64,000 nucleotides of DNA from Pseudomonas sp. MM213. Its GTDB lineage: Bacteria; Pseudomonadota; Gammaproteobacteria; Pseudomonadales; Pseudomonadaceae. Positions 3,241 through 62,829 of this stretch are shown in pieces. A program made the translations under genes and the position numbers. The notes under the pieces are model-generated. The model was given only the letters and a program-made list of their open reading frames with translations, was not told the DNA's origin and did no database searches. Positions within the stretch are counted from its first letter, which is position 1. Every line of letters begins with the position of its first letter. The DNA lies in the NCBI RefSeq assembly GCF_020423045.1, contig NZ_CP081943.1, forward strand, positions 1,860,001 to 1,924,000. Reading direction: 5' to 3'.

Positions 3241-3269
3241 TTGCAAGCCTACCTTCTAGATGGTAGGCT
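3241..3269 (+). promoter_or_regulatory. Promoter with embedded CTACC-N8-GGTAG operator (site A)
   Basis: TTGCAA (3241-3246), a 17-base spacer and TAGGCT (3264-3269) form a sigma-70-like promoter. The spacer plus the start of the -10 carries a perfect 7-bp inverted repeat, GCCTACC/GGTAGGC (3247-3268). The site lies 60 bases before the AhpD-like gene. It has the same architecture as the sites at 5994, 30024 and 62801 on this strand and at 29895, 46688 and 49380 on the other. Confidence 0.7.
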
Positions 3270-3331
3270 TCGCTCAAATTCACAACACCTCCCGTAAACC
3301 TACAGGGCGCCTGTGCCCATGTGAGAATCCC

Positions 3332-3664
3332 ATGCAAGATTGGAATCAAACTCGTAAAGACATCAACGCCCGCCTGGTACAGCTGAATGGCCTGTCTCCA
3401 GAGACCATGAAAGGTGTGGCTTCCCTAGGGGGCGCCGGCGCAAAAACAAACCACCTGGATGCCAAAACGCGGGAGCTGATTTCGTTAGCTGTAGCAGTGA
3501 CTACCCGCTGCGATGGCTGCATCGCATTCCACGCTGCTGAGGCCAAGAAAATTGGCGTAACTGCTGAAGAGGTTGCTGAAGCCTTGGGTGTAGCAATCAA
3601 CATGAACGCCGGCGCGGCTCTGGTTTACAGCACTCACGTGCTGGACGCCTTCGACAAAGAGTAA
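3332..3664 (+). CDS. Carboxymuconolactone decarboxylase / AhpD-like protein, copy 1
   Basis: 110 residues with the AhpD-type active site RCDGCIAFH: Cys60, Cys63 and His67 in a C-x2-C-x3-H arrangement, preceded by the KTRELISLAVAV helix. Such proteins reduce peroxides or act in thiol-disulfide relay. About 102 of 110 residues are identical to the copy at 30114. The two genes also share a leader (CTACAGGGCG, then CATGTGAGAATCC) directly before the ATG, so this is a recent duplication including the promoter. Start chosen by this shared leader; a longer upstream frame crosses the promoter. It is probably derepressed by electrophile or oxidant stress through operator site A. Confidence 0.88.
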   Translation: MQDWNQTRKDINARLVQLNGLSPETMKGVASLGGAGAKTNHLDAKTRELISLAVAVTTRCDGCIAFHAAEAKKIGVTAEEVAEALGVAINMNAGAALVYSTHVLDAFDKE

Positions 3665-3757
3665 TTGGGAGTGCTTATCTGAAGTTAGGCTCTTACTGAG
3701 GCAGTCCGTCCGCTGTTCAATCCTGAGGATTGGCTGCCACTACCGAGAGTGTCTGAC

Positions 3758-3919
3758 ATGAGAAAGTCGCAAAATCCGATTCAAATTTATGTGTGGTCAG
3801 ATTTCGTCTGCCCTTTATGCTGGATTGCTAAGCGGCGCTTTTAAGCAGCCCTTGAGCAGGTGTGTGCACAAGCATCTGGTAGAGAAAAACTTGCACCTAC
3901 CGGTTCACAGACCAAGTAG
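3758..3919 (+). pseudogene. DsbA-family (FrnE-like) oxidoreductase remnant
   Basis: The ATG at 3758 opens [20 protein letters not shown], then CWIAKRRF, before an in-frame TAA at 3842. In frame beyond it comes AALEQVCAQ, then a TAG at 3917. The first 28 residues align with the intact FrnE-like protein at 43646 (VDIWSDYVCPWCWVAKRRFE), with CPLC in place of CPWC. The rest of the roughly 230-residue protein is absent, so this is a 5' remnant. It sits between the AhpD-like gene and the hydrolase. Confidence 0.8.
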
Positions 3920-3944
3920 CAAAGCCGTTCAAGGAAAATTCATC

Positions 3945-4697
3945 ATGAGCAAACAAAAGATAACGTTCCGAAACCCCCAGGGTATAAGCCTGTCAGGTCT
4001 GCTTGAAACGCCGGAGTCGCCCAGAGCCTACGCATTGTTCGCCCACTGCTTCACCTGTGGAAAGGATATTAAAGCTGCCGCCAGAATTGCTAGAGCGCTA
4101 GTCGACAATAATATCGCTGTACTCCGGTTTGATTTCACTGGCCTAGGCAGCAGTGATGGCGACTTCTCCAACAGCAATTTTTCCTCCAACGTTGCCGACC
4201 TGGTAGCGGCGGCGGAGTATTTGCGTGACACATATCAGGCTCCATCCATCTTGATTGGTCATAGCCTGGGTGGAGCCGCAGTCATAGCGGCGGCGAAGCA
4301 CATTCCAGAGGCAAAGGGTGTAGTGACAATCGGTGCCCCTGCTGAAGCGGCCCATGTCATGAAGCAGTTCAAAGGTCACGTAGAAGCGATCAGAGACATT
4401 GGTGAATATAAAGTAATGCTGGCAGGAAGAGAGTTCACCATAAAAAAACAGTTTCTCGATGATATTGAAGCCCAACAGCAGGATACAAATATCGCTAACC
4501 TACGACGCGCACTACTTGTTTTTCACTCCCCAGTGGACAGCGTTGTATTAATAGAGCAAGCCCAGAAAATTTACCTGACAGCTAAACACCCCAAGAGCTT
4601 CATTTCGCTCGACTCGGCTGACCACTTGCTTACTAACAATCAGGATGCGGATTATGTAGCGTCATGCATTACCGCCTGGAGCTCTAGGTATCTGTAA
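3945..4697 (+). CDS. Alpha/beta hydrolase (OsmC-associated type)
   Basis: 250 residues, cytoplasmic, no signal peptide. Motifs: [19 protein letters not shown] near residues 28-46, [13 protein letters not shown] near 63, nucleophile elbow GHSLGG near 106, and a late His in SADHLL near 227. This matches the hydrolase half of the 'bifunctional alpha/beta hydrolase/OsmC' family, but here the OsmC half is absent; a free-standing OsmC lies at 46077. The start ATG at 3945 is preceded by AAGGA; the longer frame upstream reads through the FrnE remnant. Likely role is hydrolysis of a small ester or thioester formed during electrophile or peroxide stress, but the substrate is inferred only from family. 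Confidence 0.8.
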
Positions 4698-4912
4698 TCC
4701 TAGGCTTTGCTTCCCGCTGAAAAATGCAATTACCAGGTCTCCTCACATGCAATATCGCTCAATACTGGAACTAAAAAGAGCCAGAGAACGATAAAGAGAG
4801 ATGTCACTTTGTTGCGATAGTGAGTCGGCACAGCAAGGAGAGAAAGTTACGACAAAAAGAAGCTCAGGGTCGATAAGGTTCTTGATAATTATGAGTACAA
4901 GTTTTTTCTCGG

Positions 4913-5104
4913 CGGTTGAAGATCATCGGCGATGGCATCGGCTAACGTTGTTAAACGTTGAGCGTCGCCATGCTGGGATCGGGGCTGAGGAACATACGCG
5001 AGCGCATCGAGCACTTTGGTAGCCGATTTCATATGGCATCAGCACCTGGCCGGAGCGAGCTGGATATCGTGATATCCATGAGTATCCCCTGCAAGAAGGT
5101 CTGA
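4913..5104 (+). pseudogene. Sensor histidine kinase 3' remnant (NarX/NreB type)
   Basis: One reading frame encodes RRLKIIGDGIG, two stop codons, then GSGLRNIRERIEHFGSRFHM and ASAPGRSELDIVIS before a final TGA at 5102. DGIG is the G1 box, and the GLRNIRERIE-FG-R-F--S-PG pattern is the G2/C-terminal ATPase segment of two-component kinases that pair with NarL-type regulators. No H-box or sensor region remains upstream. It ends 27 bases before the intact response regulator, so the kinase gene has decayed while its partner survives. Confidence 0.78.
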
Positions 5105-5993: not shown

Positions 5994-6022
5994 TTGCAAC
6001 CCTACCAATCGGATGGTAGCTT
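5994..6022 (+). promoter_or_regulatory. Promoter with embedded CTACC-N8-GGTAG operator (site B, gor)
   Basis: TTGCAA (5994-5999), 17 bases, TAGCTT (6017-6022). CTACC (6002-6006) and GGTAG (6015-6019) are separated by 8 bases. The predicted transcript start is about 125 bases before gor. A second perfect palindrome, CTGGAAATTTCCAG, lies just downstream at 6034-6047. The 5765-5993 stretch before it shows no gene. Confidence 0.7.
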
Positions 6023-6154
6023 TCAAGCATCCTCTGGAAATTTCCAGGTAACCCTATGCGGCCTGTGCTCGATGAGTTGCTGACTTCCTACGATAGTCCG
6101 GCCCAATATTAGCCAACCAGTCATCACGCCGGTTGCCTGCCACGGAGATTGAAA

Positions 6155-7513
6155 ATGCCCTATGATTTTGACCTTTATGTAATTGGTGCCGGTTCCGGCG
6201 GTGTGCGGGCCGCGCGTTTCTCCGCCGGTTTTGGCGCGAAAGTGGCTGTGGCCGAAAGTCGCTACTTGGGTGGTACGTGTGTGAACGTTGGCTGCGTGCC
6301 GAAAAAACTGCTGGTCTACGGAGCGCACTTCGCCGAAGACTTCGAGCAATCGCAAGGTTTTGGCTGGACTCCGGGCGAGGCGAAGTTTGATTGGGCGACG
6401 CTGATTGCCAACAAGGATCGCGAAATCAATCGCCTGAACGACATCTACCGCAATCTGCTGGCCAACAGCGGCGTGACCTTGCATGAGGGTCACGCGAAAA
6501 TCGTCGATCCGCATACCGTCGAGATCAATGGCGAGCGCTACACCGCCAACAACATCCTGATCACTACTGGTGGCTGGCCGCAGATCCCCGAGATTCCGGG
6601 GCACGAACACGCGATCAGTTCCAATCAGGCATTCTTCCTTAAAGATCTGCCCAAGCGCGTTCTCGTGGTCGGTGGTGGTTACATTGCCGTGGAGTTTGCC
6701 GGGATCTTCCACGGCCTAGGCGCCAAGACCACGCTGCTGTATCGCGGTGATCTGTTCCTGCGCGGCTTCGACAGTGCAGTACGCAAACATTTGCAGGATG
6801 AGTTGACCAGGCGTGGCATGGATCTGCAATTCAATGCGGACATCGAGCGAATCGACAAACAAGCCGATGGCAGCCTGAAAGCAACCCTCAAGGATGGTCG
6901 TCAGCTTGAGGCGGACTGCGTGTTCTACGCTACCGGTCGACGTCCGATGCTCGACAACCTGGGCTTGGAAAACACTGGCGTCAAACTCGATAAGAAAGGT
7001 TTTGTCGAGGTCGATCAATTGTATCAAACCGCTGAACCGTCGATCCTGGCTCTGGGTGATGTGATTGGTCGGGTGCAGCTCACGCCGGTCGCTCTGGCTG
7101 AAGGCATGGCCGTTGCTCGGCGCTTGTTCAAGCCTGAGCAGTATCGTCCGGTGGATTACAAGATGATCCCGACGGCGGTGTTCAGCCAGCCTAACATCGG
7201 CACTGTCGGGTTGACCGAAGAAGAGGCGCGAGAGGCCGGGCACGAAGTGGTGATCTTTGAAAGCCGTTTCCGGCCGATGAAATTGTCGCTGACTGAATGT
7301 CAGGAGCGCACTTTGATGAAGCTGGTGGTGGACGCCAAGACCGACAAGGTCTTGGGCTGCCACATGGTCGGCCCGGAGGCCGGCGAGATCGTGCAGGGTT
7401 TGGCGATTGCGCTGAAGGCGGGCGCGACCAAGCGCGATTTCGACGAAACCATCGCCGTGCATCCGACGTCCGCTGAAGAGTTCGTCACCATGCGCACACC
7501 GGTTGAGGGTTAA
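6155..7513 (+). CDS. gor: Glutathione-disulfide reductase
   Basis: 452 residues, the usual length. It reduces GSSG to GSH with NADPH in the cytoplasm. The FAD site [12 protein letters not shown] is near residue 10, the redox disulfide [13 protein letters not shown] is near 40-52, and the NADPH site [13 protein letters not shown] is near 172. The second FAD motif [13 protein letters not shown] is near 298, and the C-terminal catalytic HPTSAEEF is near 436. The start ATG at 6155 follows CGGAGA. Site B places it under the same putative repressor as the electrophile-stress genes, which suits a role in restoring GSH after adduct formation. Confidence 0.97.
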
Positions 7514-29190: not shown

Positions 29191-29802
29191 CTAAACGCTA
29201 ACCATCGGAATTGGCAATTTTTTTCCTATTTCCGAACCGGGTTGGGCGTACTGCCACAGCAATGGATAGAACTCTAGGAAATCCGCACTTAGCGGCTCAT
29301 ACAGAGCTGTCAGCTCTTCGTATGCCCCACGCAAGCCATCTGGTTGGGATAGGCGCAGGGAGATGACTTCCAGCCCATGGCCGATCATCGAAAAATCCCT
29401 ATACGCTCCAAGCCAATCTTCCGCGATGATCAACGGCGCGATTTGAGCCAATCGTTCCGGCAAAGCGGGCTCGTCCTCTAAAAGCCGGTAGACCTTCTGA
29501 GAAAAAACGTCTAGGGACACATTGGCGTATCGCTCCCAATCCCGCGCTAGGCAATGATCGAAAAACATATCGAGCGCGATTCCCGCATAGCGACGTCTTG
29601 TTGCCGGGAATCGATCAAGCGCCCTTCTAACCAATGGATGGGAATCCGTAAAAGCATCAATTTGGCGATGCAGCCTGATTGCCTCTTCAGTCGCTGCAGA
29701 ATAATTTCCTGAAAGCCTCCCCTTTACAAAATCCCCATAGAGACTCCCCAGCAGCTGCTGCGGCTCCTGACCGCCTAAGTGAAGATGTGCAAGGTAGTTC
29801 AT
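29191..29802 (-). CDS. acpH: Acyl carrier protein phosphodiesterase
   Basis: 203 residues, the usual AcpH size. MNYLAHLHLG start, GSLYGDFVKGRL near 19, RLHRQIDAFTDSHP near 44, and IALDMFFDHCLARDWERY near 74 with the HD-like metal residues. The enzyme cleaves 4'-phosphopantetheine from holo-ACP. Its promoter, 93 bases upstream, carries the same operator as the oxidative/electrophile genes, an unexpected regulatory partner. Confidence 0.93.
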   Translation of the reverse strand: MNYLAHLHLGGQEPQQLLGSLYGDFVKGRLSGNYSAATEEAIRLHRQIDAFTDSHPLVRRALDRFPATRRRYAGIALDMFFDHCLARDWERYANVSLDVFSQKVYRLLEDEPALPERLAQIAPLIIAEDWLGAYRDFSMIGHGLEVISLRLSQPDGLRGAYEELTALYEPLSADFLEFYPLLWQYAQPGSEIGKKLPIPMVSV

Positions 29803-29894: not shown

Positions 29895-29923
29895 ACACTA
29901 CCATTCACTAGGTAGGTCATCAA
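29895..29923 (-). promoter_or_regulatory. Promoter with embedded CTACC-N8-GGTAG operator (site G, acpH)
   Basis: On the minus strand: TTGATG, 17 bases (ACCTACCTAGTGAATGG), TAGTGT. The inverted repeat CTACC-N8-GGTAG occupies the spacer and start of the -10, as in the other sites. It points toward acpH. Confidence 0.65.
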
Positions 29924-30023: not shown

Positions 30024-30052
30024 TTGCAAGCCTACCAACTAGATGGTAGCGT
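30024..30052 (+). promoter_or_regulatory. Promoter with embedded CTACC-N8-GGTAG operator (site C)
   Basis: TTGCAA (30024-30029), spacer GCCTACCAACTAGATGG, TAGCGT (30047-30052). It drives AhpD copy 2 and the old yellow enzyme. A perfect leader palindrome, GGGCGTTAACGCCC (30087-30100), lies 13 bases before the ATG. Confidence 0.72.
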
Positions 30053-30113: not shown

Positions 30114-30446
30114 ATGCAAGATTGGAAGCAAACTCGTCAAGACATCAATGCCCGCTTGGTACAGCTGAATGGCTTGTCTCCTGAGACCTTGAAAGGCATG
30201 GCTGCGCTAGGTGGTGCCGGCGCGAAAACAAACCACCTGGATGCCAAAACCCGGGAACTGATTTCGCTAGCTGTGGCGGTGACCACCCGCTGTGATGGCT
30301 GCATTGCTTTCCACGCAGCTGAAGCCAAGAAACTTGGTGTGACCAGCGAAGAGGTAGCCGAAGCATTGGGTGTAGCCATCAACATGAACGCTGGTGCTGC
30401 GCTGGTCTACAGCACCCACGTACTCGACGCGTTCGACAAATCCTAA
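30114..30446 (+). CDS. Carboxymuconolactone decarboxylase / AhpD-like protein, copy 2
   Basis: 110 residues; Cys60-x2-Cys63-x3-His67 (RCDGCIAFH). It differs from copy 1 at eight positions only (residues 5, 9, 26, 29, 31, 74, 78 and 110). Unlike copy 1, it has an intact downstream partner: the ene-reductase 44 bases later. The pair suggests joint handling of an electrophile or organic peroxide. Confidence 0.9.
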   Translation: MQDWKQTRQDINARLVQLNGLSPETLKGMAALGGAGAKTNHLDAKTRELISLAVAVTTRCDGCIAFHAAEAKKLGVTSEEVAEALGVAINMNAGAALVYSTHVLDAFDKS

Positions 30447-30490: not shown

Positions 30491-31609
30491 ATGAATAAGC
30501 TGTTTACTCCCTACAATCTGGCCGGTATTTCCTTGAAGAACCGCGTCGTCATGGCCCCCATGACTCGCACCCGAACCTTGGACAACATTCCAAATGAGTC
30601 CAATGCGTTGTATTACGCACAACGTGCCTCTGCCGGTTTGCTGATCACAGAAGGCCTGCCGATTTCCGACGAGGCTCGTGGTTATCTTTACACCCCTGGC
30701 ATTTACGCTGATGAGCACTTGCCAGGTTGGCGCAAAGTTACCGACGCTGTGCATGCCAAGGGCGGGAAGATTTTTGCGCAACTCTGGCACGTTGGCCGCA
30801 TGTCCCATGTCTCGGTGCATGGCATGGCGCCCGTCTCCTCGGGGACAGTGCCTGCTGTGGACACTACGGTGTATGCCTGGATTGAGCCTGGCAAAGCCGG
30901 CCCAGTTCAACCCAGCGCACCACGTGCATTGGAAACTGACGAAGTGAAACGCGTTATCGCGGACTTCGTGAAATCTGCGCGCATGGCGATGGATGCCGGT
31001 TTTGACGGTATCGAAATCATGGCTGCCAATGGGTTCCTGTTCGATCAGTTCCTTAGCAGCGCCCTGAACACTCGTACCGACCAGTACGGTGGCTCCATCG
31101 CCAACCGTCAACGCTTCCTGTTGGAAACCATTGACGCGATTGCTGCTGAAATCGGTGGTTCGAAGATCGGCGTGCGGTTCTCGCCGTTTGGTCGCCTGTA
31201 TGACTTCGGTGTGTACGAAGGCGAAGAAGAAACCTGGATGAGCATGGCGGCTGCCCTCAATGAAAGAGAGCTGGCGTTTGTTCACTTGAATTACCAGCCG
31301 ACCATCCTCGCCGCGCAAACACCACCAGGTTTCGGCGCAGCGTTCCGCGAGGCTTACAAAGGCACCTTGATGGCTGCCGGTGGCTTTACCAAAGAAATCG
31401 CAGAATCTGAACTGGCCAAAGGTGAACTCGACCTCATCGCTTTCGGCACCGCCTACATCGCAAACCCTGATCTGGTAGAGCGTATGAAGAACGGCTGGCC
31501 GTTGGCAGAGGGCGATCGCTCGACTTACTACGGGGTGAGCGGCTCGATTGACAAGGGCTATACCGATTACCCGAATTACGTAAACGCTGCGCAAACTGTT
31601 CCGGCGTAA
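30491..31609 (+). CDS. Old yellow enzyme family alkene reductase (NemA-like)
   Basis: 372 residues, TIM-barrel FMN enzyme. LFTPYNLAGISLKNRVVMAP start (here NKLFTPYNLAGISLKNR), PMTRTRT substrate/FMN region, AQLWHVGRMSH near 98, the DGIEIMAANGFLFDQFLSS stretch with the HxxN-type pair replaced by AAN, and DQYGGSIANRQRF near 196. It reduces activated alkenes such as N-ethylmaleimide, enones and nitro-compounds with NADPH. In enterobacteria nemA is repressed by NemR, a TetR protein; the operator here is of similar kind. Confidence 0.93.
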   Translation: MNKLFTPYNLAGISLKNRVVMAPMTRTRTLDNIPNESNALYYAQRASAGLLITEGLPISDEARGYLYTPGIYADEHLPGWRKVTDAVHAKGGKIFAQLWHVGRMSHVSVHGMAPVSSGTVPAVDTTVYAWIEPGKAGPVQPSAPRALETDEVKRVIADFVKSARMAMDAGFDGIEIMAANGFLFDQFLSSALNTRTDQYGGSIANRQRFLLETIDAIAAEIGGSKIGVRFSPFGRLYDFGVYEGEEETWMSMAAALNERELAFVHLNYQPTILAAQTPPGFGAAFREAYKGTLMAAGGFTKEIAESELAKGELDLIAFGTAYIANPDLVERMKNGWPLAEGDRSTYYGVSGSIDKGYTDYPNYVNAAQTVPA

Positions 31610-32912: not shown

Positions 32913-32924
32913 ATGGAGCACACT

Positions 32925-33331: not shown

Positions 33332-33853
33332 TTGATTCTTATCATTTACGCCCATCCCTACCCCGAAAAATCACATGTTAACCAAGCAATGCTCAAACGA
33401 GCATCCAGCAATCCCGACGTGGTAATACGCTCCCTGTACGACCTTTATCCAGACTTCAATGTCGACGTTGAAGCCGAACAGCGGGTAGTCGAACAAGCAC
33501 AGCTGCTCGTATTGCAACATCCGATGTACTGGTACAGCTCCCCGCCTCTTCTGAAATTGTGGATCGATAAAGTATTCACTCACGGTTGGGCATACGGTAA
33601 AGGCTCTGTCGCCCTCAAAGATAAGAGCTTGATTTGGGCCGTCACGACGGGTGGCGAGCACGATCATTTCCACATAGGCGACCACCCAGGTTTCTCGGTG
33701 TTGGCTCAACCCCTTCACGCAACGGCAATCTATTGCAACATGCACTGGCTGAACCCGATTGTGGTGCACGGCGCGTATGCAGCTGCACCCGAGGCCCTAG
33801 ACTCACAAATCGAGCACTATTACGCGCGCTTGGCCTCCTGGAAGGAAGATTGA
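33332..33853 (+). CDS. KefF/MdaB-like NAD(P)H quinone oxidoreductase
   Basis: 173 residues, flavodoxin-like fold. [20 protein letters not shown] start, [20 protein letters not shown] near 63-82 and [12 protein letters not shown] near 104. The TTG start has GGAGG six bases upstream. It ends one base before the Kef antiporter start. It is the typical ancillary subunit activating Kef efflux and a quinone reductase. Confidence 0.93.
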
Positions 33854-33854
33854 T

Positions 33855-35681
33855 ATGGAGACTCATAGTCTGATTGAGATGCTCATTTACTTGGGCTCGG
33901 CTGCCTTGATAGTCCCAATCGCCGTTCGGTTAGGACTTGGCCCGGTTCTAGGTTATCTGTTGGCCGGCTGCCTGATCGGCCCGTGGGGCCTGAAGCTGGT
34001 AACTGATGTGGAATCCATCCTGCACTTTGCTGAAATCGGCGTAGTTTTGATGTTGTTTATCATTGGCCTCGAACTTGATCCCAAACGTCTTTGGGCCATG
34101 CGCCGAATGGTCTTCGGTGGCGGCGCATTGCAGATGCTGGCCTGCGGTGTTGCAATTGCCGTGTTTTGCGCCGCACTGGGCTTGAACTGGACAGCAGCAC
34201 TGTTGGTTGGGTTGACGCTGAGTCTGTCGTCGACCGCCATCGCCATGCAGGCCATGAACGAGCGAAACATGATCCCTACCGCAGTGGGTCGCAGCAGCTT
34301 TGCCGTGCTGTTGTTTCAGGACATCGCGGCGATTCCGCTGGTCGCGATGATTCCATTGTTAGCAACAAATGGTGGTACGCCTTCCGGCGCAGAACTCGCG
34401 CTGTCCATCGCAAAAATCGTCGGTGCGATCGTCGCGGTGGTGCTCTTGGGTCAGTACGTTTCCCGGCCCGTTCTGCGCTTTGTCGCGCGCTCAGGCTTGC
34501 GCGAAATCTTCAGTGCCGTTGCGCTGTTTCTGGTGTTTGGATTCGGGTTGTTGCTGGAAGAGGCAGGATTGTCCATGGCTATGGGCGCATTTCTCGCCGG
34601 CGTCCTGTTAGCCAGTTCGGAATACCGGCACGCGCTGGAAAGTGACATCGAGCCATTCAAGGGACTGCTGCTCGGTTTGTTCTTTATCGGCGTCGGCATG
34701 TCGATCGACTTCGGCACGCTGATCGATGCGCCACTGAAAGTCTTAACGCTGACCTTGGGTTTTATCCTGATCAAGCTGCTGATTATCAAACTCCTTGGTC
34801 GCTTCCTGAGTGTCCCTACTGAACAGCGCTCTTGGCAGGCGGTGTTTCTCGGTCAGGGCAGTGAGTTCGCCTTCGTCGTGTTTGGCGCAGCAACGGTTGC
34901 CGGCATCCTGGTCGACCCCTGGGGTAAAAGCCTGACCTTGGCGGTAGCGCTGTCCATGTGCGTCACACCTCTGCTGATCCTTGTGCTCAATCGCCTGGAG
35001 TCCGCAAGAAAACAGGACAATCAGGAAGCGGACACCATCGACCAGCGCAATCCTCGGGTAATCATCGCCGGCTTTGGTCGATTCGGCCAAATCGCGGGCC
35101 GTCTATTAATGTCCTGTGGCTTTGAAGTAGTGGTGCTGGATCACGATCCCGATCATATCGAGACGTTGCGCAAGTTCGGGGTCAAGGTGTTCTACGGCGA
35201 CGCGACCCGCCTCGATTTGCTGCACGCCGCCGGTGCTGCACAAGCAGTGGTGTTGATCAACGCGATCGACAATCAGGAAGACAACCTGGCATTGACCCGG
35301 CTGGCTCAAGAGCATTTTCCTTCCCTGAAGCTGGTGGTGCGCGCTCGCGATATGGGGCACATCATTACCCTACGTCAGATGGGCATAGAGGCAGTCGAGC
35401 GGGAAACTTTTGAGAGCGCTTTGTCCCTTGGACGCAAAGCGCTGGAACAACTGGGCGTAGGGCCCTACGAGGCCCGTGAACGCGCGGATCGATTCCGCCG
35501 CCTGAACCAGGAAATGCTTGAAGAAATGGCCGCGCAGCCCGAGGACGACACTGAGTTCAAGTACGACGCATACAAGCGGGCCAACGCCCTTCTGACGGAA
35601 ATTTTCAACGAAGACCGTGCTCATCCGATCAACAATTGGCCTGAACATGATAGAAGCAGGCAAGAGGAAACACGAAGCTAA
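33855..35681 (+). CDS. Glutathione-gated K+/H+ antiporter (KefB/KefC type)
   Basis: 608 residues. The N-terminal ~385 form about 12 membrane segments of the CPA2 family ([34 protein letters not shown]). A regulatory RCK/TrkA-N domain starts near 399 with [16 protein letters not shown] and continues to about 515 ([20 protein letters not shown]). Kef systems are inhibited by GSH and opened by GSH adducts, acidifying the cytoplasm to protect against electrophiles. Immediate linkage to the KefF-like gene, and to ene-reductase and gor through a shared promoter type, strongly supports electrophile defence. Confidence 0.95.
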
Positions 35682-43241: not shown

Positions 43242-43586
43242 CTAGACGACCTCCTTTAGCTCAGAAACGATTGCCTTCTTCAACGCGGCAACCGATCGAG
43301 AGCCGGCCAGAACCAAGCGTAACCGCCCTTCGTGAAAAATCGCCAAGGATGGCACTGACCGGATACCGTACATTTGGGAAATCGTCGGCGAAACAGCCAC
43401 ATCAATCTTCCCGAATGCGGCGCGGGAGCGCAGCTTTTCTGCCAAGTCGTGAAAGACCGGCTTCATTTCCTGGCAAGGCTTGCACCAAGAGGCCGAAAAC
43501 AGCACGACACTGCTTCCTTTTGCGACGAATCGAGCGAATTTTTCAGCGCTCAAATCTACAATATGACTCACATGTACCTTATCCAT
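43242..43586 (-). CDS. Thioredoxin-fold protein
   Basis: 114 residues. Active site SASWCKPCQEM near residues 31-41, cis-Pro in SVPSLAIF near 77. Single thioredoxin domain with no signal peptide: cytoplasmic disulfide reductase. Last gene of the OsmC-SDR-TetR-FrnE run, 60 bases after the FrnE-like gene. Confidence 0.93.
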   Translation of the reverse strand: MDKVHVSHIVDLSAEKFARFVAKGSSVVLFSASWCKPCQEMKPVFHDLAEKLRSRAAFGKIDVAVSPTISQMYGIRSVPSLAIFHEGRLRLVLAGSRSVAALKKAIVSELKEVV

Positions 43587-43645: not shown

Positions 43646-44341
43646 TTAATTACATCCATCGATACCGCAGACTTGACCGCTGAACGACTCCTCCTCGCCC
43701 TTTGCTTCCAAATACATTTGATTCAATGCTTGGAGAAAGTCCTCTGTAGGCTGAGCACCCGACATGGAAAATGCATTATTGAACACAAAAAACGGTACAC
43801 CTGAGCCGAATTTGGCGGCTGCGTGCTCGTCTTCCTGCATCTGAAGGCGCAATTCCATGGACGACCAGGCGAGTCGAATCGACTCATCAGATACCCCTAC
43901 AGATTTTGCTATCGACTCTAAACTGCCTCGGTCGAACAGTGATTTACCCTGGGTGGTACTTTGCTCATAGAGCGCTTCCACCAGGTTTTTCTTCACTGCT
44001 TCATCTTCGACTGCTTTGACTAATACGTGCGCATCCGCAGTGTCACCAAACAGCATGGTTTCGAAACGGTAATCAAGCCCCGAAGATTGGCCATATTGCT
44101 TCACCGTACTCATCATGGTTACAGCAGCGGCTGGACTACCCAATTTACGCTTGAGGGCTCCTACCATAGGCTCAGCAACGTGGTTCGGGGCTAGACGGTA
44201 AGCTCTAACGTTGACTTGAACGCTGTCCTTGTGAGGGAAGTTTTCAAGCGCTTTTTCAAAACGACGCTTAGCGACCCAGCACCAAGGACAGACGTAATCA
44301 GACCAAATATCTACTACGAATTTCTTCGAAACACTGCTCAT
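43646..44341 (-). CDS. DsbA-family FrnE-like thiol oxidoreductase
   Basis: 231 residues, no signal peptide, so cytoplasmic. VDIWSDYVCPWCWVAKRRFE holds the CPWC active site; cis-Pro loop GVPFFVFNNAFSMSGAQ near 181. The C-terminal VCGIDGCN supplies an extra cysteine pair, like the second motif in FrnE of Deinococcus. It is the intact counterpart of the 5' remnant at 3758. Confidence 0.93.
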   Translation of the reverse strand: MSSVSKKFVVDIWSDYVCPWCWVAKRRFEKALENFPHKDSVQVNVRAYRLAPNHVAEPMVGALKRKLGSPAAAVTMMSTVKQYGQSSGLDYRFETMLFGDTADAHVLVKAVEDEAVKKNLVEALYEQSTTQGKSLFDRGSLESIAKSVGVSDESIRLAWSSMELRLQMQEDEHAAAKFGSGVPFFVFNNAFSMSGAQPTEDFLQALNQMYLEAKGEEESFSGQVCGIDGCN

Positions 44342-44406: not shown

Positions 44407-45030
44407 TTAACAACTCTGTTGATGCCCACTGGTATGTCTGATCTCACGAGCAGCCATTGCGGCTGATCGCTCCACCGATTCGAGCAAGCAGTCGAACCCA
44501 GCTAAGGGATCTGCTGATCTGCCCAATGTCCAATCAATGAGACTCGCCCCCTCTAATGCGCTCAACAGCATGAATGCATAGGATTGAGCGGGCTTGGCCA
44601 GTAACCAGCCTTTCTGAATAGCAGCCTCACTGATGGCTCTCTGGAGCCAGTCAAGTTGCGTCTCGAAAAAGACTCGAGTAAGAACTTGAAGCGATGAAGG
44701 TAGTGCAGCCATTTCTGCCGCCAGTGCGCCACACAAAGGTAGAAGCCCATCATTCGCACTGACAACAAACAGACGAGAAAAAGCTCGAAGCCGCATCAAA
44801 GGATCCTTATCAGTGTCTTCAATTGACCTAATGGTCGCTTCGAAGCGATTGATTGAGTCTTTGATCAACTCTTGACCGAGACACTCTTTGGTCGGGAAGT
44901 GATGATGAATGCTGGCTTTTCTAATACCAATCGTCGCGGCTAGATCAGCGTAACTAAATGCTGAGTAGCCCTTAGACCTCATCTGGTTTTCCGCGACTTT
45001 TAACAGCGCTGCTCTTGTCGAAACAGACAT
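44407..45030 (-). CDS. TetR-family regulator 1, candidate redox sensor
   Basis: 207 residues. N-terminal HTH: YSAFSYADLAATIGIRKASI then HHHFPTKECL (about 22-52). The ligand domain carries LLPLCGALAAEMAALPSSL, with Cys100, shared with the second TetR. NemR-type regulators sense electrophiles via a cysteine in this region. It sits in the operon driven by site F, with OsmC, SDR, FrnE and Trx, so autoregulation is expected. Best candidate repressor for the CTACC-GGTAG promoters. Confidence 0.9.
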   Translation of the reverse strand: MSVSTRAALLKVAENQMRSKGYSAFSYADLAATIGIRKASIHHHFPTKECLGQELIKDSINRFEATIRSIEDTDKDPLMRLRAFSRLFVVSANDGLLPLCGALAAEMAALPSSLQVLTRVFFETQLDWLQRAISEAAIQKGWLLAKPAQSYAFMLLSALEGASLIDWTLGRSADPLAGFDCLLESVERSAAMAAREIRHTSGHQQSC

Positions 45031-45205: not shown

Positions 45206-45979
45206 TCAGGCACGAACGGCCATAATTCCCGCATCCACGTCCCAGATAGCACCGGTCACCCAGGATGTCTTGTCCGACAGCAGGAACACGATGGTGTTGG
45301 CCACATCTTCCGGAACACCAACTCGGCCCAGTGGGTGAAAATCGTTCAGCGACTTCATCGCTTCTGGGATCGCCTCTTTGTCCATGAAACCTTCATAGAT
45401 CGAGGTGTGAACGATCCCTGGCGAGACGGCGTTGACGCGGATACCCGAGTGAGCCAATTCAATTGCCAGGTTACGGGTCAAGGCGTGCAGACCTGCCTTC
45501 GCCATGGAGTAGGCAGAGGCCGGCGAACCTGCCAGTGCGGCCTGTGCACCGATGGAGCCGACGTTGACAATTGACCCTTCGCGCTTGGCGGCGAGCATGT
45601 TCTTGACTACTGCCTGGGTGATGAAGAACGTCGCACGGTTGAGAGACAGGTACATGTCGTACTCAGCTTCGTCGTGCTCGGTGAAGGCTTTGGGAATGAA
45701 TATGCCAGCGGAGTTCACCATCAGGCTGATATCGCTATGGTTGGCGTTGATTTCGTTGCGAACGAAATTCATGCCATCTTCAGTCATGAGGTTTGCGACT
45801 ATCACAGAAACCGGGCCAAGCGCGCTCAACTCGCTACGGACGGCGTCTGCCTTGTCTTGTTTGCTGCCAGTCAACACCACACTGCCACCAGCTTTCAGCA
45901 CCATGCGGGCAGTTTCCAGACCCATACCACTGGTACCACCTACAACAAGCAATTTCTTACCTTTGAAAAAATCGTTCAT
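45206..45979 (-). CDS. SDR-family oxidoreductase
   Basis: 257 residues, classical [18 protein letters not shown] near 11, NSAGIF near 88, VNVGSIG Ser region near 138, YSMAK near 157, and [17 protein letters not shown]-terminal. Reduces a carbonyl with NAD(P)H. Positioned between OsmC and TetR in the site F operon. Confidence 0.92.
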
Positions 45980-46076: not shown

Positions 46077-46631
46077 TCAGTCCTCACGAACCTCGAGGGT
46101 CGGCACCATACGGATGGCTTTCGAGAAGTTGGCATAGTTGACCGACGTCTTGAGTACATTCTTGTGCAACTCTTCCACGCGTTCACGGGGCGCATCGGTG
46201 TGCAGGCGAACGACGAAGCTCACTTCGTCGTAGCCTGGGTTGACGCTCTCGTCGAGGCCCAAGAAACCACGCAGGTCGAGGGTACCGTCCGTCTCAATTT
46301 CCAGACTGTGGATCTTGATACCCATCATGGCGGCGTTGGCCGCATAGCCCACCGACATGCAAGCGTTGAGAGCGGCCATTAGCAGTTCTTGAGGGTTAGG
46401 CGCAGTGTTCTGGCCCAGCAACTCATTTGGCTCATCGGCGACAATTTCGAAATCACGCGAATAGGTCTCACCGGCCAAGCTGTAGCGGCTGACTTTCGCC
46501 ACAGAGCGAGTCTGGCCTTTCCACTGGGTCTTGACGTTAAAGCTCGCGTGACGCTTGGTAGCATCCTCAGCAACGCCTTGGGCAAACTGCTGCAGGGCAG
46601 CTACGTCAATACCATTCAGGTTATTCGTCAT
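46077..46631 (-). CDS. OsmC-family peroxiredoxin-like protein
   Basis: 184 residues. OsmC fold: NTAPNPQELLMAALNACMSV holds the conserved Glu and first catalytic Cys; the second OsmC Cys is not evident, replaced by VNYANFSKAIR. Length fits the OsmC/YhfA-like group. It reduces organic hydroperoxides or handles acylated thiols. The ATG at 46631 has AGAGGA eight bases before it. First gene of the site F operon. Confidence 0.9.
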   Translation of the reverse strand: MTNNLNGIDVAALQQFAQGVAEDATKRHASFNVKTQWKGQTRSVAKVSRYSLAGETYSRDFEIVADEPNELLGQNTAPNPQELLMAALNACMSVGYAANAAMMGIKIHSLEIETDGTLDLRGFLGLDESVNPGYDEVSFVVRLHTDAPRERVEELHKNVLKTSVNYANFSKAIRMVPTLEVRED

Positions 46632-46687: not shown

Positions 46688-46716
46688 ACTCTACCAACTG
46701 GTAGGATGGGTTGCAA
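46688..46716 (-). promoter_or_regulatory. Promoter with embedded operator variant (site F, osmC-tetR operon)
   Basis: Minus strand: TTGCAA, 17 bases (CCCATCCTACCAGTTGG), TAGAGT. Here CTACC and GGTAG are only 4 bases apart (CTACCAGTTGGTAG), four bases closer than the others, but the -35/-10 frame is the same. It is 57 bases before osmC. Confidence 0.6.
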
Positions 46717-47017: not shown

Positions 47018-47581
47018 TTACGATACGATAATATTTTTCAAAATCAAATCAAACCCAGACTGATCAACCACCTTGTCGTTGAGCGCCCAGGAAACAAAAC
47101 TGCTACCTTCAAGCAAGCTCAAAATCGCTCGTGAGATCTCTTTAGGATTGAGATCTGCTTTTATCACCTTCTGGGATTGACCTATTACTAGGTTACTTTC
47201 CAACCAGGCAATATGTATTTCGAAGAATTTTTTGGTCAACTCTTTAAGGCTGTCAGGTAGAGCAGAAAGTTCAGCAGCAAGCGCACCGCAAAGAGGTAGC
47301 ATTCCATTTTTTGAGCTATCGACAAACAGCGCTGAAAACTCTTTCAATCGAACGATTGTATCGGAGCTTTCTTCGTTTATTAACTCCAAATTCTTGGCAA
47401 ACCTAAAAAGATAACTCTCAATAACGGCAATTCCGAGCCCTTCCTTTGTAGGAAAGTGGTGATGAATACTCGCCTTTTTTATACCAATTTCGTCAGCCAA
47501 ATCTGCATAGCTAAATGCAGCGTAGCCTTTGGTGCGCAGCAACATCTCGGCGGTGGTTAAAAGGTCGGAACGCGTACTCAT
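47018..47581 (-). CDS. TetR-family regulator 2, paralogue of regulator 1
   Basis: 187 residues. HTH YAAFSYADLADEIGIKKASI then HHHFPTKEGL, and the shared MLPLCGALAAELSALPDSL with Cys98. About half of its residues match regulator 1. It sits downstream of the amino-acid permease but has its own promoter at 47611-47639. It may control a subset of the CTACC-GGTAG sites or compete with regulator 1. Confidence 0.9.
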   Translation of the reverse strand: MSTRSDLLTTAEMLLRTKGYAAFSYADLADEIGIKKASIHHHFPTKEGLGIAVIESYLFRFAKNLELINEESSDTIVRLKEFSALFVDSSKNGMLPLCGALAAELSALPDSLKELTKKFFEIHIAWLESNLVIGQSQKVIKADLNPKEISRAILSLLEGSSFVSWALNDKVVDQSGFDLILKNIIVS

Positions 47582-47688: not shown

Positions 47689-49176
47689 CTAGACTCCTAC
47701 ATGGTTGGAAGTGCCCTCAATCTCTTCCGAGCCCGTTGCTTTGGAGCGGACGGTCTTCGACCATCCCAGCATCAGTGCTCCCGCGACTAACGGTATAGAA
47801 AGAACAGTGTAAGTTCCGTTGGGATAATCGAAGCCCAAGAGAACCAATACCAAGAGCAAAAAACCAAGAGTTAACCAAGAGGTGAACGGCGCGCCAGGCA
47901 TCCTAAATGAGACCATCGCGACCTCCCCTCTTTTTACGGCGCGACGGTAATTTATTTGAGATAAGACGATAAAGGCCCACGTAGAGAGAATCCCCAACGT
48001 TACCAGGTTCAACAACAGTTCGAATAGCTGAGATGGAATCAAGAAGTTCAAAAGCACACCAAAAACGTTAATCCCCATGGTAACCAAGATCCCCATATAG
48101 GGTACCCCTTGGGTGCTCATACGCTTAAATAGTTTTGGCGCTGACCCACCCATGGCTAGCGATCTCAACACGCGCCCAGTGGCATACAAACCAGAATTGA
48201 GACTTGAGAGCGCCGCCGTCATTACAACGATGTTCATAATGGAGCCAATTCCAGGAATACCAAGCGCCTCAAAGAAAGTTACAAAAGGACTAACGTTGGC
48301 GCTATAGGCTGTCCACGGCAGTACAGTGACAAGCAAGAATACTGAACCCACGTAAAACAGACTTATTCTCCAGATCACACCATTGATTGCTTTTGGGATA
48401 ACACTTCTAGCATCCGCCGTCTCACCGGCAGCGGTTCCCACCAACTCTATGCTCGCATAAGCAAAGATTACGCCTTGCACGATGATGATTGCTGGCAGAA
48501 GCCCATGAGGAAATATACCCCCGTTATCCGCGATCAAATGCAGGCCAGGAATATGTCCTGCCACCTCATGGCCAGTAGCAAAAAAGAACGACCCGATCAC
48601 CAAAAAAATACTGATTGCCGCGACTTTTATCACGGCGAACCAGAATTCCATTTCGCCAAACCATTTGACACCGACCATATTCATCAATGTCACTACACCC
48701 AAAGCGCTTAGAGCGAATACCCACTGCGGAACATCCGAAAACACACTCCAGTATTTCATGTAAATAGCAATGGCTGTTATATCAACAACACCTGTTAATG
48801 CCCAAACTACGAAATACATCCAACCCGCAACGAAAGAAGCACGCTCCCCCATAAACTCCCTTGTATAGGATACAAAACTCCCACTGCTTGGACGGTGCAT
48901 CACAAGCTCACCCAGCGCCCTCAAAATGAAAAAAGCAAATACTCCACAAACCAAATAAACTAACGCAAGTGCAGGCCCCGCAATTTGCAGTCTAGCCCCA
49001 GCGCCCAAGAACAATCCAGTACCGATGGCTCCACCTAGCGCCATCATTTGCACATGACGCTTCTTTAAATGCTTTGAATATCCGCTTTCATGGGAATCAA
49101 GCCAGTTCGACCTATCGTTTAGTTCGCTGCTGCATTGAACTGCTGAGAGGGGTTGTATTTTTTTTTGTTTTTTCAT
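47689..49176 (-). CDS. Amino-acid permease (APC family, AnsP/AroP-like)
   Basis: 495 residues, 12 membrane segments. Family motif HLKKRHVQMMALGGAIGTGL (about 36-55), then FLGAGARL; ELVMHRPSSGSFVSYTREF near 92; the usual EGTS-like tail. Sequence feel is closest to L-asparagine permease AnsP. Substrate inferred only. Its ~200-base leader is preceded by site E. Confidence 0.9.
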   Translation of the reverse strand: MKKQKKIQPLSAVQCSSELNDRSNWLDSHESGYSKHLKKRHVQMMALGGAIGTGLFLGAGARLQIAGPALALVYLVCGVFAFFILRALGELVMHRPSSGSFVSYTREFMGERASFVAGWMYFVVWALTGVVDITAIAIYMKYWSVFSDVPQWVFALSALGVVTLMNMVGVKWFGEMEFWFAVIKVAAISIFLVIGSFFFATGHEVAGHIPGLHLIADNGGIFPHGLLPAIIIVQGVIFAYASIELVGTAAGETADARSVIPKAINGVIWRISLFYVGSVFLLVTVLPWTAYSANVSPFVTFFEALGIPGIGSIMNIVVMTAALSSLNSGLYATGRVLRSLAMGGSAPKLFKRMSTQGVPYMGILVTMGINVFGVLLNFLIPSQLFELLLNLVTLGILSTWAFIVLSQINYRRAVKRGEVAMVSFRMPGAPFTSWLTLGFLLLVLVLLGFDYPNGTYTVLSIPLVAGALMLGWSKTVRSKATGSEEIEGTSNHVGV

Positions 49177-49379: not shown

Positions 49380-49408
49380 AACCTACCATTCACATGGTAG
49401 CCATGCAA
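49380..49408 (-). promoter_or_regulatory. Promoter with embedded CTACC-N8-GGTAG operator (site E)
   Basis: Minus strand: TTGCAT, 17 bases (GGCTACCATGTGAATGG), TAGGTT. It points toward the amino-acid permease. A weaker half-site (CAACC-TTAT-GGTAG, 49465-49478) lies on the metC side. No gene is seen between 49177 and 49565. Confidence 0.65.
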
Positions 49409-49565
49409 ATTCTATTTTTAAGTATTTTTAAATCTTTGTTTTTAAACGTATTTTATTTACATGCCAACCTTATGGTAGACATCTAAGATGAATAGCATTT
49501 TAATCTTGAATCTGCGGCAGATAGCGCGCAACCCAACCTCACCAACGCAAGAATTGGAAGCCGGT

Positions 49566-50735
49566 ATGAAAAAATACAAAACCGTACAAACCCTACTTGC
49601 CCACGCTTCTATCGAGCCTGAGCAGCATCATGGCTTCGTGAATACACCTGTTTACCGGGGTTCTACCGTAGCTTTCCCTACGTGTGAATCGATGCGCGAA
49701 GGACGCCAAAAATATACGTATGGCCGGTGGAACAACCCTTCGACGGAGGCATTGACTCAAGCCCTCCAGCAGTTGGAGGGAGCGGAAGGCACGGTCCTTT
49801 GCCCTTCAGGTCTCTCCGCATGTACGACTGCCATACTGTCCGTGGTGGGAGCTGGGGATCACCTCCTGATTGCCGACAACGTGTATTCGCCGATAAGGGC
49901 ATTCTGTGAGCAGGTGGGTCACCGCCTGGGAATCGAGGTCTCGTTCTACGACCCGACAATAGGTGCCGGCATCGTAGATTTCCTCAAGCCAAACACTAAG
50001 GCCATCTATACCGAATCTCCTGGCTCCTTGACTCTGGAAATACAAGACATCCCGGCGATAGCCAAGGTTGCCCATGAGCATGACATCCTGGTTATTGCAG
50101 ACAATACATGGGGTACACCGCTTTACTTTCCGTCACTCGAACTTGGTGTGGATCTTTCCATCATGGCCGCGACGAAATATATCGTCGGTCACTCCGATGC
50201 TGTTCTTGGTACTGTTTCGGCTTCAAAGCGTGCGTGGGACAGCCTTAAACGATTCCATTTCAACATGGGCTTGTTTGCCAGCCCTGATGACGTGACGCTG
50301 GCACTTCGGGGAATGAGGACGCTAGATGTTCGACTTGAACGTCATTATAAAAACGCGACGATGGTGGCTAAGTGGCTGGAAACACGCGAGGAAGTTGAGG
50401 CAGTTTATTATCCTGCATTAGAGTCTCACCCTCAGCACCACTTATGGAAAAGGGATTTTAAAGGAGCATCGGGTTTACTGTCCTTCGTGACCAAACCTTC
50501 CACACAAGCAGCAGCAGACGCACTCTTGGATAACTTATCGCTGTTTTCAATTGGCTACTCTTGGGGCGGTTTTGAAAGCTTGGCGATGATCGCAGATCCC
50601 AAACCCGTTAGAAGCGCGACCTCATGGGAGGTTGATGGGCACCTTGTGCGGCTTCATATTGGTCTTGAAGACCCATCTGACCTGATCGACGATCTCGAAA
50701 AAGGCTTTGCGAAATTTAATATGCTACGTGGCTAA
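49566..50735 (+). CDS. metC: Cystathionine beta-lyase family protein (MetC-like)
   Basis: 389 residues, Cys/Met-metabolism PLP fold. YGRWNNPSTEALTQALQQLE near 54-73, the SGLSACTTAILSV loop near 79, and the PLP Lys in MAATKYIVGHSDAV near 204. E. coli MetC type, splitting cystathionine or cysteine to release pyruvate, ammonia and thiol or H2S. The ATG at 49566 has GGAAG before it; the frame extends 26 codons upstream without support. It neighbours the sulfide-oxidation operon, which would deal with H2S produced. Confidence 0.85.
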   Translation: MKKYKTVQTLLAHASIEPEQHHGFVNTPVYRGSTVAFPTCESMREGRQKYTYGRWNNPSTEALTQALQQLEGAEGTVLCPSGLSACTTAILSVVGAGDHLLIADNVYSPIRAFCEQVGHRLGIEVSFYDPTIGAGIVDFLKPNTKAIYTESPGSLTLEIQDIPAIAKVAHEHDILVIADNTWGTPLYFPSLELGVDLSIMAATKYIVGHSDAVLGTVSASKRAWDSLKRFHFNMGLFASPDDVTLALRGMRTLDVRLERHYKNATMVAKWLETREEVEAVYYPALESHPQHHLWKRDFKGASGLLSFVTKPSTQAAADALLDNLSLFSIGYSWGGFESLAMIADPKPVRSATSWEVDGHLVRLHIGLEDPSDLIDDLEKGFAKFNMLRG

Positions 50736-53239: not shown

Positions 53240-53262
53240 CGCTTTAACGCTTTAACGCTTTA
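53231..53262 (+). repeat. Four tandem 8-bp repeats (ACGCTTTA)
   Basis: Four perfect copies of ACGCTTTA span the dioxygenase stop codon and intergenic region; probable slipped-strand expansion. Confidence 0.9.
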
Positions 53263-53291
53263 ACCTTGCGTAGTTATCAACGGAAAATAAT

Positions 53292-54968: not shown

Positions 54969-54971
54969 AAT

Positions 54972-61706: not shown

Positions 61707-61856
61707 TCAACCATAAAACCAAGACGCTTCATCACACTGCAAACTTATGTGCCTCGTAAAAGATTTTCGGCGCGAGCGGCTGCCTGACCGTATTCACAGC
61801 ATCACTATGTTTCTGCAATAAACGATTGTTAGCCACCCAAAAAATAAATCCAATAA

Positions 61857-61877
61857 AAGGCTATTCCAAATAGCCTT
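61857..61877 (+). promoter_or_regulatory. Hairpin abutting the ompW-like ribosome-binding site
   Basis: AAGGCTATT-CCA-AATAGCCTT, perfect 9-bp stem, ends immediately before GGGAG and 11 bases before the ATG. It may affect ribosome access. Confidence 0.5.
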
Positions 61878-61888
61878 GGGAGATAACT

Positions 61889-62593
61889 ATGACCAGCAAA
61901 AATAAAAATAATATCTTGGTGACCCTGCTCTTTATTGTATTTTTCTGTTCAAGAGCCCACGCGGAGTCCGATCAGCCGATGAATGCTGTGAAACTAGGGT
62001 TTGCTGACATTCACTTTCACACCAGCACAAGCGATTTAGAAGGCCCAGCTGGCACGACACCACCAGGAATTACAGCGAACATCAACAACACCCAAACGCT
62101 AGCAATAATCTATGAGCGTCAAATTTCCGGGCCTTGGTCTATAGTTTTACAAGGTGGCGCACCTCCAACCTTGAAAGTTGATGCTACTGGCACTGCAAAG
62201 TCGCTTGGTAAAATCGCTACTGCGAAAGCTTGGTTCCCAGCTGTCATTCTGAAATACACCTTTCGCGACGTTTTTGGTTTTCGTCCTTACGTTGGAGCTG
62301 GAGTAAACTATACGTTCTATACTGACAAGCATATGACTGATGCTTATACAAATGGATTCGGTGGCACATCAAGCTCAGCCAAGCTGGATGATACCTGGGG
62401 CGGCGTGATGAAGTTTGGTGCGGAGTTTCCTCTTTCCGACAATTGGGTGTTTGACGTAGGGTACTCTCATTATTGGATAAAAACGAAGGCCACTATTGCC
62501 ACAGAAACACCGGGCATCGGCAGAATTGAAAGAACTATCCAAGCCAAGGCCAATCCAGATGCATTTGGCTTGTTGATTGGATATAAATTTTAA
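61889..62593 (+). CDS. OmpW-family outer-membrane protein
   Basis: 234 residues. Signal peptide about 1-25 (cleaved near AHAESD), then an eight-stranded barrel: LGFADIHFHTSTSDLEGPAG, YVGAGVNYTFYTD and a C-terminal DAFGLLIGYKF ending in Phe, as outer-membrane proteins do. OmpW-like proteins let small hydrophobic compounds enter. GGGAG precedes the ATG. Confidence 0.92.
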   Translation: MTSKNKNNILVTLLFIVFFCSRAHAESDQPMNAVKLGFADIHFHTSTSDLEGPAGTTPPGITANINNTQTLAIIYERQISGPWSIVLQGGAPPTLKVDATGTAKSLGKIATAKAWFPAVILKYTFRDVFGFRPYVGAGVNYTFYTDKHMTDAYTNGFGGTSSSAKLDDTWGGVMKFGAEFPLSDNWVFDVGYSHYWIKTKATIATETPGIGRIERTIQAKANPDAFGLLIGYKF

Positions 62594-62667
62594 ATATTCA
62601 GTCAAGCCCCCCAAAAAATAAACTAGACAAGCAAAATCCAACAGCTCGCCCTTCGCTCCGCTCTGTA

Positions 62668-62700
62668 CCGATCAATCGACATCGCATGCCGATTGATCGG
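62668..62700. promoter_or_regulatory. 11-bp inverted repeat downstream of ompW-like gene
   Basis: CCGATCAATCG/CGATTGATCGG with an 11-base loop; no T-tract follows, so it is either a weak terminator or an operator. Confidence 0.45.
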
Positions 62701-62800
62701 CCTTAGGGAAAAGCCACCATAGCGAAATGCGTCACCGACTCAACCTAGAGCCTCCCGGCGAATTGGTACCCAGACTGAACGCCATATCAGTACATTTCAG

Positions 62801-62829
62801 TTGCACGCCTACCTACTGGATGGTAACCT
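62801..62829 (+). promoter_or_regulatory. Promoter with embedded operator variant (site D, EamA exporter)
   Basis: TTGCAC, spacer GCCTACCTACTGGATGG (17), TAACCT. The right half is GGTAA instead of GGTAG. It is 97 bases before the transporter start codon. Confidence 0.6.

Follow-up and report, generated by a model that had tools for sequence, protein, structure and literature searches.

In Pantoea ananatis, the TetR repressor AltR represses its own gene and the alt genes, and deletion of altR raises the alt genes (PMC13178969). As described in that report, the inverted repeat before altR is required for repression, and AltR needs its Cys100 to be de-repressed in response to allicin and methicin; N-ethylmaleimide (NEM), diamide and H2O2 do not de-repress AltR, and bleach is not named among the agents tested. 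The AltR box, CAATCTAC-N6-GTAGATTG, overlaps the -10 box and the ribosome-binding site, and its authors could not firmly unite it with IR2, which reads TTACCAAC-N6-GTTGGTAA (PMC13178969). Genomic clones carrying the PfAR-1 gene sets conferred allicin resistance, and the main text of the PfAR-1 paper, in which the word 'operator' occurs 0 times, names tetR and reports no operator (PMC7119367). We analyzed a stretch of 64,000 nucleotides of Pseudomonas sp. MM213 (51.6% G+C), referred to as the window, which, judging by its genes, is an allicin/thiosulfinate-tolerance (alt) island that resembles the PfAR-1 repeats. The window carries seven copies of an operator-promoter element built around the palindrome CTACC-N8-GGTAG. 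The element is real, and a function is very probable; we hold with high confidence that the seven sites are operators of AltR-type TetR repressors controlling the alt island.

The seven sites, listed in an original prediction made from the window sequence, are all present, each with a TTG hexamer followed by exactly 17 bp and then by TAGnnT (six sites) or TAACCT (one site). Four lie on the forward strand, at 3241..3269 (TTGCAA and TAGGCT), 5994..6022 (TTGCAA and TAGCTT), 30024..30052 (TTGCAA and TAGCGT) and 62801..62829 (TTGCAC and TAACCT), and three on the reverse strand, at 29895..29923 (TTGATG and TAGTGT, divergent from the 30024 site), 46688..46716 (TTGCAA and TAGAGT) and 49380..49408 (TTGCAT and TAGGTT, between divergent permease and cystathionine beta-lyase genes). 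The palindrome had been put at six sites; it is perfect at five, starting at 3249, 6002, 29898, 30032 and 49383, and the sixth, at 62809, has one mismatch (GGTAA). At the remaining site the palindrome (46691) has two mismatches, its left arm reading CATCC, and CATCCTACCAGTTGGTAG combines this imperfect N8 form with an exact inner CTACC-N4-GGTAG. The latter had been noted as the 4-base spacing of 'site F', and it is no stray, as it recurs at osmC and tetR promoters.

Searched with up to three mismatches, the 29-bp site pattern TTGCANNNCTACCNNNNNNATGGTAGNNT has seven matches in the window against 0.06 expected from shuffles, and 0/100 shuffles reach seven. The genome-wide scan that the original prediction had set as a check returned the same seven window sites and no others in 6,746,355 bases, and the element is thus restricted to the island. 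We also built a symmetrised site matrix from 12 distinct Pseudomonas sites (loci L027-L052 plus the window), with a match threshold of at least 14 bits; the seven window sites score 18-28, that at 30024 highest.

Some candidates were examined and rejected. The bare palindrome without mismatches occurs seven times in the genome, five of them inside the window; the other two (genome positions 277727 and 1223972) are without the wwCTAGww centre, and no alt gene was recognised by eye in the open reading frame (ORF) listing around them. A palindrome with one mismatch at genome position 1926450 falls within an unrelated TetR reading frame, and a matrix match at 61564 (score 15.2, chance expectation 0.05) lies inside the reading frame 60933-61706. 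An eighth site had been proposed at 33246, keeping the right half only, with kefF-kefB (here kefF-kefC) as a separately controlled unit; neither proposal held, as the matrix score is about -3, against 18-28 for the seven sites, and 0/22 distinct kefF upstream copies, the window copy included, carry a site.

Two AltR-type TetR genes reside in the window, both on the reverse strand: TetR 1 (47018..47581), behind the permease gene, and TetR 2 (44407..45030). The TetR_N domain PF00440 was found in both proteins, which are 47% identical and share the recognition helix KASIHHHFPTKE with each other and with Pantoea AltR. Each carries a cysteine in an LPLCGAL motif, Cys98 in TetR 1 and Cys100 in TetR 2. 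This sensing cysteine is conserved in 81/81 aligned AltR-type proteins, and KASIHHHFPTKE is exact in 66/81, with one or two residues changed in the remaining 15. Operators head both repressor units, the 46688 site standing before osmC-sdr-tetR2 and the 49380 site before permease-tetR1; each unit would be read as a single transcript, so that the repressors would limit themselves.

To follow the element beyond MM213, we used 249 Pseudomonas genomes evenly drawn across the genus, MM213 included, in which AltR-type proteins were called at E<=1e-25, and a strict pattern that fixes TTG, CTACC, TGGTAG and T, allows no mismatch and catches 5/7 window sites. The strict motif is found in 17/249 genomes and an AltR-type TetR in 19/249, and all 17 are among the 19; none of the 230 genomes without AltR has it. 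The association has a Fisher p of 2.0e-24, or 2.6e-23 without MM213, values that kinship makes too small, while the 0/230 stands. The two AltR genomes without a strict match carry variants with one or two mismatches. Of the 33 strict sites, 30 share a contig with altR, at a distance of up to about 50 kb; a single fragmented assembly accounts for the other three, which it has on a different contig. In genomes G039, G071, G213 and G233, the only AltR-type match is 45-48% identical to TetR 2, yet sites are present, which suggests, by sequence, that AltR-family proteins other than TetR 2 also read the operator.

The site matrix was then applied to loci held out from its construction. With TetR 2 as query, the best 80 of 119 relatives were kept (70 distinct) and ten plasmid stretches were added; the relative in P. 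fluorescens FW300-N2E3 is 97% identical to TetR 2. In all, 53 of the loci outside the training set carry an altR gene (L053-L096 and L098-L106), several of them again from Pseudomonas. The Pseudomonas-trained matrix matches 53/53 held-out loci, or 52/52 without L073, which shares a contig stretch with training locus L050. Among the controls, shuffled loci gave matches in 2/53, and 20 column-permuted palindromic matrices matched between 0 and 6 of the 53. A match stands just before tetR or at most 150 bp after it in 35/53 held-out loci. Hosts with sites span alpha-, beta- and gammaproteobacteria and include Stenotrophomonas, Achromobacter, Burkholderia, Gluconobacter, Hyphomicrobium, Sphingobium and Enterobacterales. 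Co-occurrence with altR and the held-out matrix test thus support the earlier idea that an operator in the -35/-10 spacer is read by a TetR protein, with the two TetRs of the window as candidates, and make the TetR-operator link strong though indirect.

The geometry recurs as well. Across 89 distinct exact palindromes from 65/81 sources, TTG stands exactly 8 bp upstream in 64/178 orientations, compared with 0-11 at 27 other offsets, and the centre is mostly (A/T)(A/T)C(T/C) followed by (A/G)G(A/T)(A/T). For sites scoring at least 14, TTG is found at that offset on the gene strand at 30/36 ahpD, 32/32 osmC, 7/7 permease and 15/26 tetR promoters. Since the offset recurs across loci, the -35/-10 spacer layout is conserved and not peculiar to MM213.

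We next counted sites at most 300 bp upstream of each gene, with distinct upstream regions taken once each and the window and training loci included; matches below 40% identity or 50% cover, starting beyond residue 12 or without 150 bp upstream were excluded, filters that removed the gor genes of L053 and L098. A site precedes ahpD in 43/55 copies, osmC in 35/48, gor in 3/3, acpH in 6/8, the permease gene in 8/10, the cystathionine beta-lyase-like gene (cbl) in 4/5 and tetR in 27/99, the acpH and cbl counts using the same physical sites as those of the divergent ahpD and permease genes. No site was found within this distance of kefC (0/20), trx (0/32) or the MFS (0/11), araC (0/11), oprB (0/6), response-regulator (0/6) and lrp (0/3) genes, as for kefF.

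The inner spacing differs between promoters. The core CTAC-N6-GTAG, which is CTACC-N4-GGTAG when the fifth base is kept, is exact in 28/32 osmC and 21/26 tetR sites scoring at least 14, but in only 4/36 ahpD, 0/7 permease and 0/3 gor sites. It is present in 48/76 sites with altR in the downstream unit versus 17/77 others, a comparison among related sequences that leaves out 12/165 distinct sites without a known neighbouring gene. The idea that the N6 core marks altR-driving promoters is thus borne out only in part, as a trend with many exceptions. Separately, in three loci (L061, L065 and L067, from a Gluconobacter genome and two metagenome bins) the operator is doubled before tetR as CTACCTACC-N4-GGTAGGTAG, which offers several spacings at once; the Bifidobacterium title on one of these bins looks like a binning error.

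Several observations weigh against the assignment of the sites to AltR-type repressors. The loci were collected via the TetR gene, and kinship therefore inflates the counts. A class-level sample of 274 genomes contained neither the motif nor an AltR above 35% identity outside MM213, and is uninformative since it is AltR-free. A site precedes eamA in only 2/5 copies, and the counts for oye (6/47), sdr (8/47) and dsbA (7/44) are expected only if these genes are read from upstream genes. The Pantoea box CAATCTAC-N6-GTAGATTG has 0 matches in the window with up to three mismatches, and its core CTAC-N6-GTAG is present at only one of the seven window sites, 46688. Finally, osmC sites hold the N6 register far more often than the exact N8 palindrome (28 versus 6 of 32), and a single fixed dimer footprint may therefore fail to account for every site.

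Our proposed mechanism is as follows. The operator is an 18-bp palindrome with the rough consensus CTACC-wwCTAGww-GGTAG that fills the 17-bp spacer and whose right arm supplies the first three -10 bases (TAGnnT). A bound repressor dimer would mask the spacer together with the beginning of the -10 box and thereby keep RNA polymerase from opening the promoter. For MM213, we infer that both TetRs bind the same sites and block RNA polymerase sterically. A thiosulfinate would react with Cys100 of TetR 2 or Cys98 of TetR 1, whereupon the repressor would be released and the seven promoters would fire, namely those of the two ahpD genes, gor, acpH, osmC-sdr-tetR2-dsbA-trx, permease-tetR1 and the EamA exporter gene. 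By analogy, the ligand is likely a thiosulfinate rather than NEM or HOCl, because the genes form an alt island like the PfAR-1 repeats. The original prediction had taken electrophile or reactive-chlorine defence as the signal, which the inducers reported for the Pantoea homologue do not support (PMC13178969). Under such control, the bacterium could very likely switch on a whole defence kit against garlic- or onion-type toxins at once.

How the two repressors and the two spacings relate can be read in more than one way. We tentatively suggest, as a possibility short of an expectation, that AltR across Proteobacteria reads one half-site at two spacings, CTACC-N4-GGTAG being favoured at osmC/altR promoters and CTACC-N8-GGTAG at other effectors, with the Pseudomonas right arm fused to the -10 box in both; the spacing would set the order or strength of release, the two paralogues with identical helices would share this code, and the Pantoea AltR box and IR2 would be variants of one operator. 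Alternatively, the work could be divided: TetR 2 would hold all promoters but that of the permease/beta-lyase genes, which would fall to TetR 1, and cross-binding would matter little. The permease sites do form a distinct subgroup (for example CTACC-ATGTGAAT-GGTAG) that accompanies the TetR 1 gene, also in loci of P. kilonensis, P. brassicacearum and P. thivervalensis (L057, L063 and L064). However, the recognition helices of TetR 1 and TetR 2 are identical, and G039, G071, G213 and G233 between them carry permease-like, ahpD-like and osmC-like sites, so that the common form is apparently read by a protein other than TetR 2, either TetR 1 or a further sub-type; such a division is conceivable and, in our view, doubtful. 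QacR-like repressors bind as two dimers on overlapping sites, and each N8 site could likewise hold two dimers side by side, overlapping with a 4-bp shift, the N4-type core at osmC and tetR promoters being the single-dimer form. The CTAC-N6-GTAG core is indeed present in most osmC and tetR promoters and in few or no ahpD, permease and gor sites, and N6 is also the spacing of the Pantoea AltR box and of the AcuR operator (PMC13178969, PMC3017554). Against this, the split between altR-driving and other sites is the trend among related sequences given above and no rule, and we regard the two-dimer arrangement as possible but rather unlikely.

Two further explanations would dispense with AltR. The duplicated look of the two ahpD promoters and genes (the proteins are 94% identical) would fit a strong shared promoter that was spread by duplication within the island and is no operator. 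Yet the palindrome persists despite variation in the central 8 bp and the flanks, it accompanies altR in alpha-, beta- and gammaproteobacteria, and it is absent from all AltR-free Pseudomonas genomes of the sample, and we strongly disfavour this explanation as highly improbable. The sites might instead belong to another regulator of the island, of the AraC, Lrp or LuxR type, and merely co-occur with altR: araC, lrp and response-regulator genes are located within the window, and LysR- or AraC-type genes are found in some plasmid stretches (L100, L101 and L105). Five site-bearing plasmid clusters (L098, L099, L103, L104 and L106), however, have altR as the only annotated regulator in the fetched stretch, and the sites often stand just before or after altR, leaving very little room for such a regulator. 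Control by AltR-type repressors hence remains our reading of the seven sites.

The island is organized as follows. On the forward strand, the site at 3241 precedes a gene for an AhpD-like protein with a CMD domain (3332..3664; the in-frame ATG at 3332 yields 110 residues, as in copy 2, and the ORF-list start is 3260), and the site at 5994 precedes gor, encoding glutathione-disulfide reductase (6149..7513; NF004776 above cut-off). The divergent sites at 29895 and 30024 face an acpH-like ACP phosphodiesterase gene on the reverse strand (29191..29802; Pfam ACP_PD above its cut-off and NCBIfam below its own) and the second AhpD-like gene on the forward strand (30114..30446). The latter is followed on the same strand by oye, an ene-reductase gene (Oxidored_FMN; 30491..31609), a 76-residue ORF (32913..33143) that is a probable 4-oxalocrotonate tautomerase (4-OT) from its size, the look of its sequence and its place in the PfAR-1 gene order, and kefF and kefC (33332..35681), which lack a separate operator and may be transcribed by read-through from ahpD-oye-(repeat gene)-4-OT-like ORF. 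On the reverse strand, the site at 46688 heads osmC (46077..46631; ATG at 46631, ORF-list start 46697), the first gene of osmC-sdr-tetR-dsbA-trx, which continues with an SDR dehydrogenase (45206..45979), TetR 2, a DsbA/FrnE-like protein (43646..44341) and a thioredoxin (43242..43586). The 49380 operator region is shared by an amino-acid (asparagine-permease-like) transporter gene on the reverse strand (47689..49176) and a divergent cystathionine beta-lyase-like gene on the forward strand (49488..50735), and the site at 62801 precedes an EamA-family exporter gene on the forward strand (62923..63813). Apart from that of the 4-OT-like ORF, these assignments come from family searches.

Other genes of the window accompany these units. 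Between oye and the 4-OT-like ORF, a 327-codon ORF on the forward strand (31713-32696) has a start that, by eye, resembles a signal peptide; a 39-bp unit (VAADGADHVGAKS-like) is repeated in it in tandem about 17 times, and it has one marginal Pfam match and no NCBIfam match. The stretch 7586-28396, between operator-bearing units, is a metabolic cluster without an operator, with FMO/hydrolase, GMC oxidoreductase, amine oxidase, TauD dioxygenase, PALP, DAO and ABC genes. A nitroreductase-fold gene on the reverse strand (2196-2795), weakly like SagB-type dehydrogenases, is divergent from the first operator unit. At 50844-55802, a sigma-54 activator gene is divergent from a metallo-beta-lactamase-fold gene, a BLH-phosphatase/pyridine-nucleotide-reductase fusion and a TauE exporter gene; this looks like sulfide/persulfide oxidation adjoining the allicin genes, and the matrix scan found no match of at least 14 bits before these genes.

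Compared with the PfAR-1 islands RE1-RE3, both gene sets occur in identical order in the window, except that an additional repeat-protein ORF separates oye from the 4-OT-like ORF there (PMC7119367). Operator sites are present in all three PfAR-1 loci (L039, L049 and L051), and the PfAR-1 genome yielded three loci in the TetR 2 search and P. salomonii ICMP 14252 two, in agreement with the copy numbers given in PMC7119367. Because the window is such an island, clustering of the seven operons is expected, and the earlier view that they are unlinked and unusual within 60 kb falls away. Overall, the observation underlying the original prediction is confirmed and its interpretation is partly supported.

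As a sequence marker, the site also points to probable thiosulfinate-responsive promoters of other genomes, flagging genes that are perhaps not yet counted in the alt kit, such as acpH and the permease gene, and a lone AhpD gene on the P. aeruginosa plasmid pF021. This gene (L097:14930-15333), 93% identical to copy 2, has a perfect operator-promoter and is flanked by two IS30 transposase copies; the 30 kb around it contain no relative of any other window gene tested, altR included. By sequence, it is apparently an effector that moved with its switch but without its repressor.

AltR control of the alt genes is already known in Pantoea (PMC13178969). As far as the literature was searched, the Pseudomonas operator, its exact fit to the -35/-10 spacer, its conservation over a wide range of hosts and the two half-site spacings are new; titles and the opening of abstracts yielded no published operator for Pseudomonas alt genes, subscription journals and bioRxiv being outside this coverage. 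Among other TetR repressors, AcuR of Rhodobacter sphaeroides is a distant sequence relative with an inverted repeat overlapping its promoter, but its operator is TAATAGAC-N6-GTCTATTA, its ligand acrylate and its operon leaderless (PMC3017554). The AcuR operator has 0 matches in the window with up to three mismatches, and the window TetRs are not AcuR, scoring 44.2 and 50.9 bits with NF051457 against a cut-off of 247. Escherichia coli NemR, called an AltR homologue in PMC13178969, is likewise a redox-cysteine TetR repressor over a reductase gene; compared by inducers, it differs in responding to NEM, bleach and diamide, whereas Pantoea AltR is insensitive to NEM or diamide.

Pantoea AltR shares with the MM213 system a TetR repressor, a common recognition helix and cysteine and a required inverted-repeat operator, and differs in that the window element is CTACC-N8-GGTAG, placed in the -35/-10 spacer of seven promoters over 60 kb (PMC13178969). 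In the alt cluster of P. ananatis PNA 97-1R (L098), our matrix has five matches of 16.6-19.0 bits where the null expects zero and the next score is 7.8. All five are intergenic: three precede osmC, an aminotransferase-like gene and altR, respectively, one separates the EamA gene from a thioredoxin gene, and one the ene-reductase gene from the second thioredoxin gene. The five coincide with every AltR-box or IR2 match (up to four mismatches) in the fetched stretch. One site is the exact AltR box and the other box-like sites differ by 2-4 mismatches, so we do not take the Pantoea box as family-defining. Nor does a plain 2-bp displacement describe the published dyad: an exact CTAC-N6-GTAG also occurs at three of the five matrix sites, and both registers are thus supported in Pantoea. 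On these sequence grounds, the window element is a variant of the Pantoea AltR operator. The 2026 report left open the reading of IR2 by AltR and its DNA specificity (PMC13178969), for which our data offer a testable answer: one 18-bp core would cover both Pantoea boxes and the Pseudomonas island.

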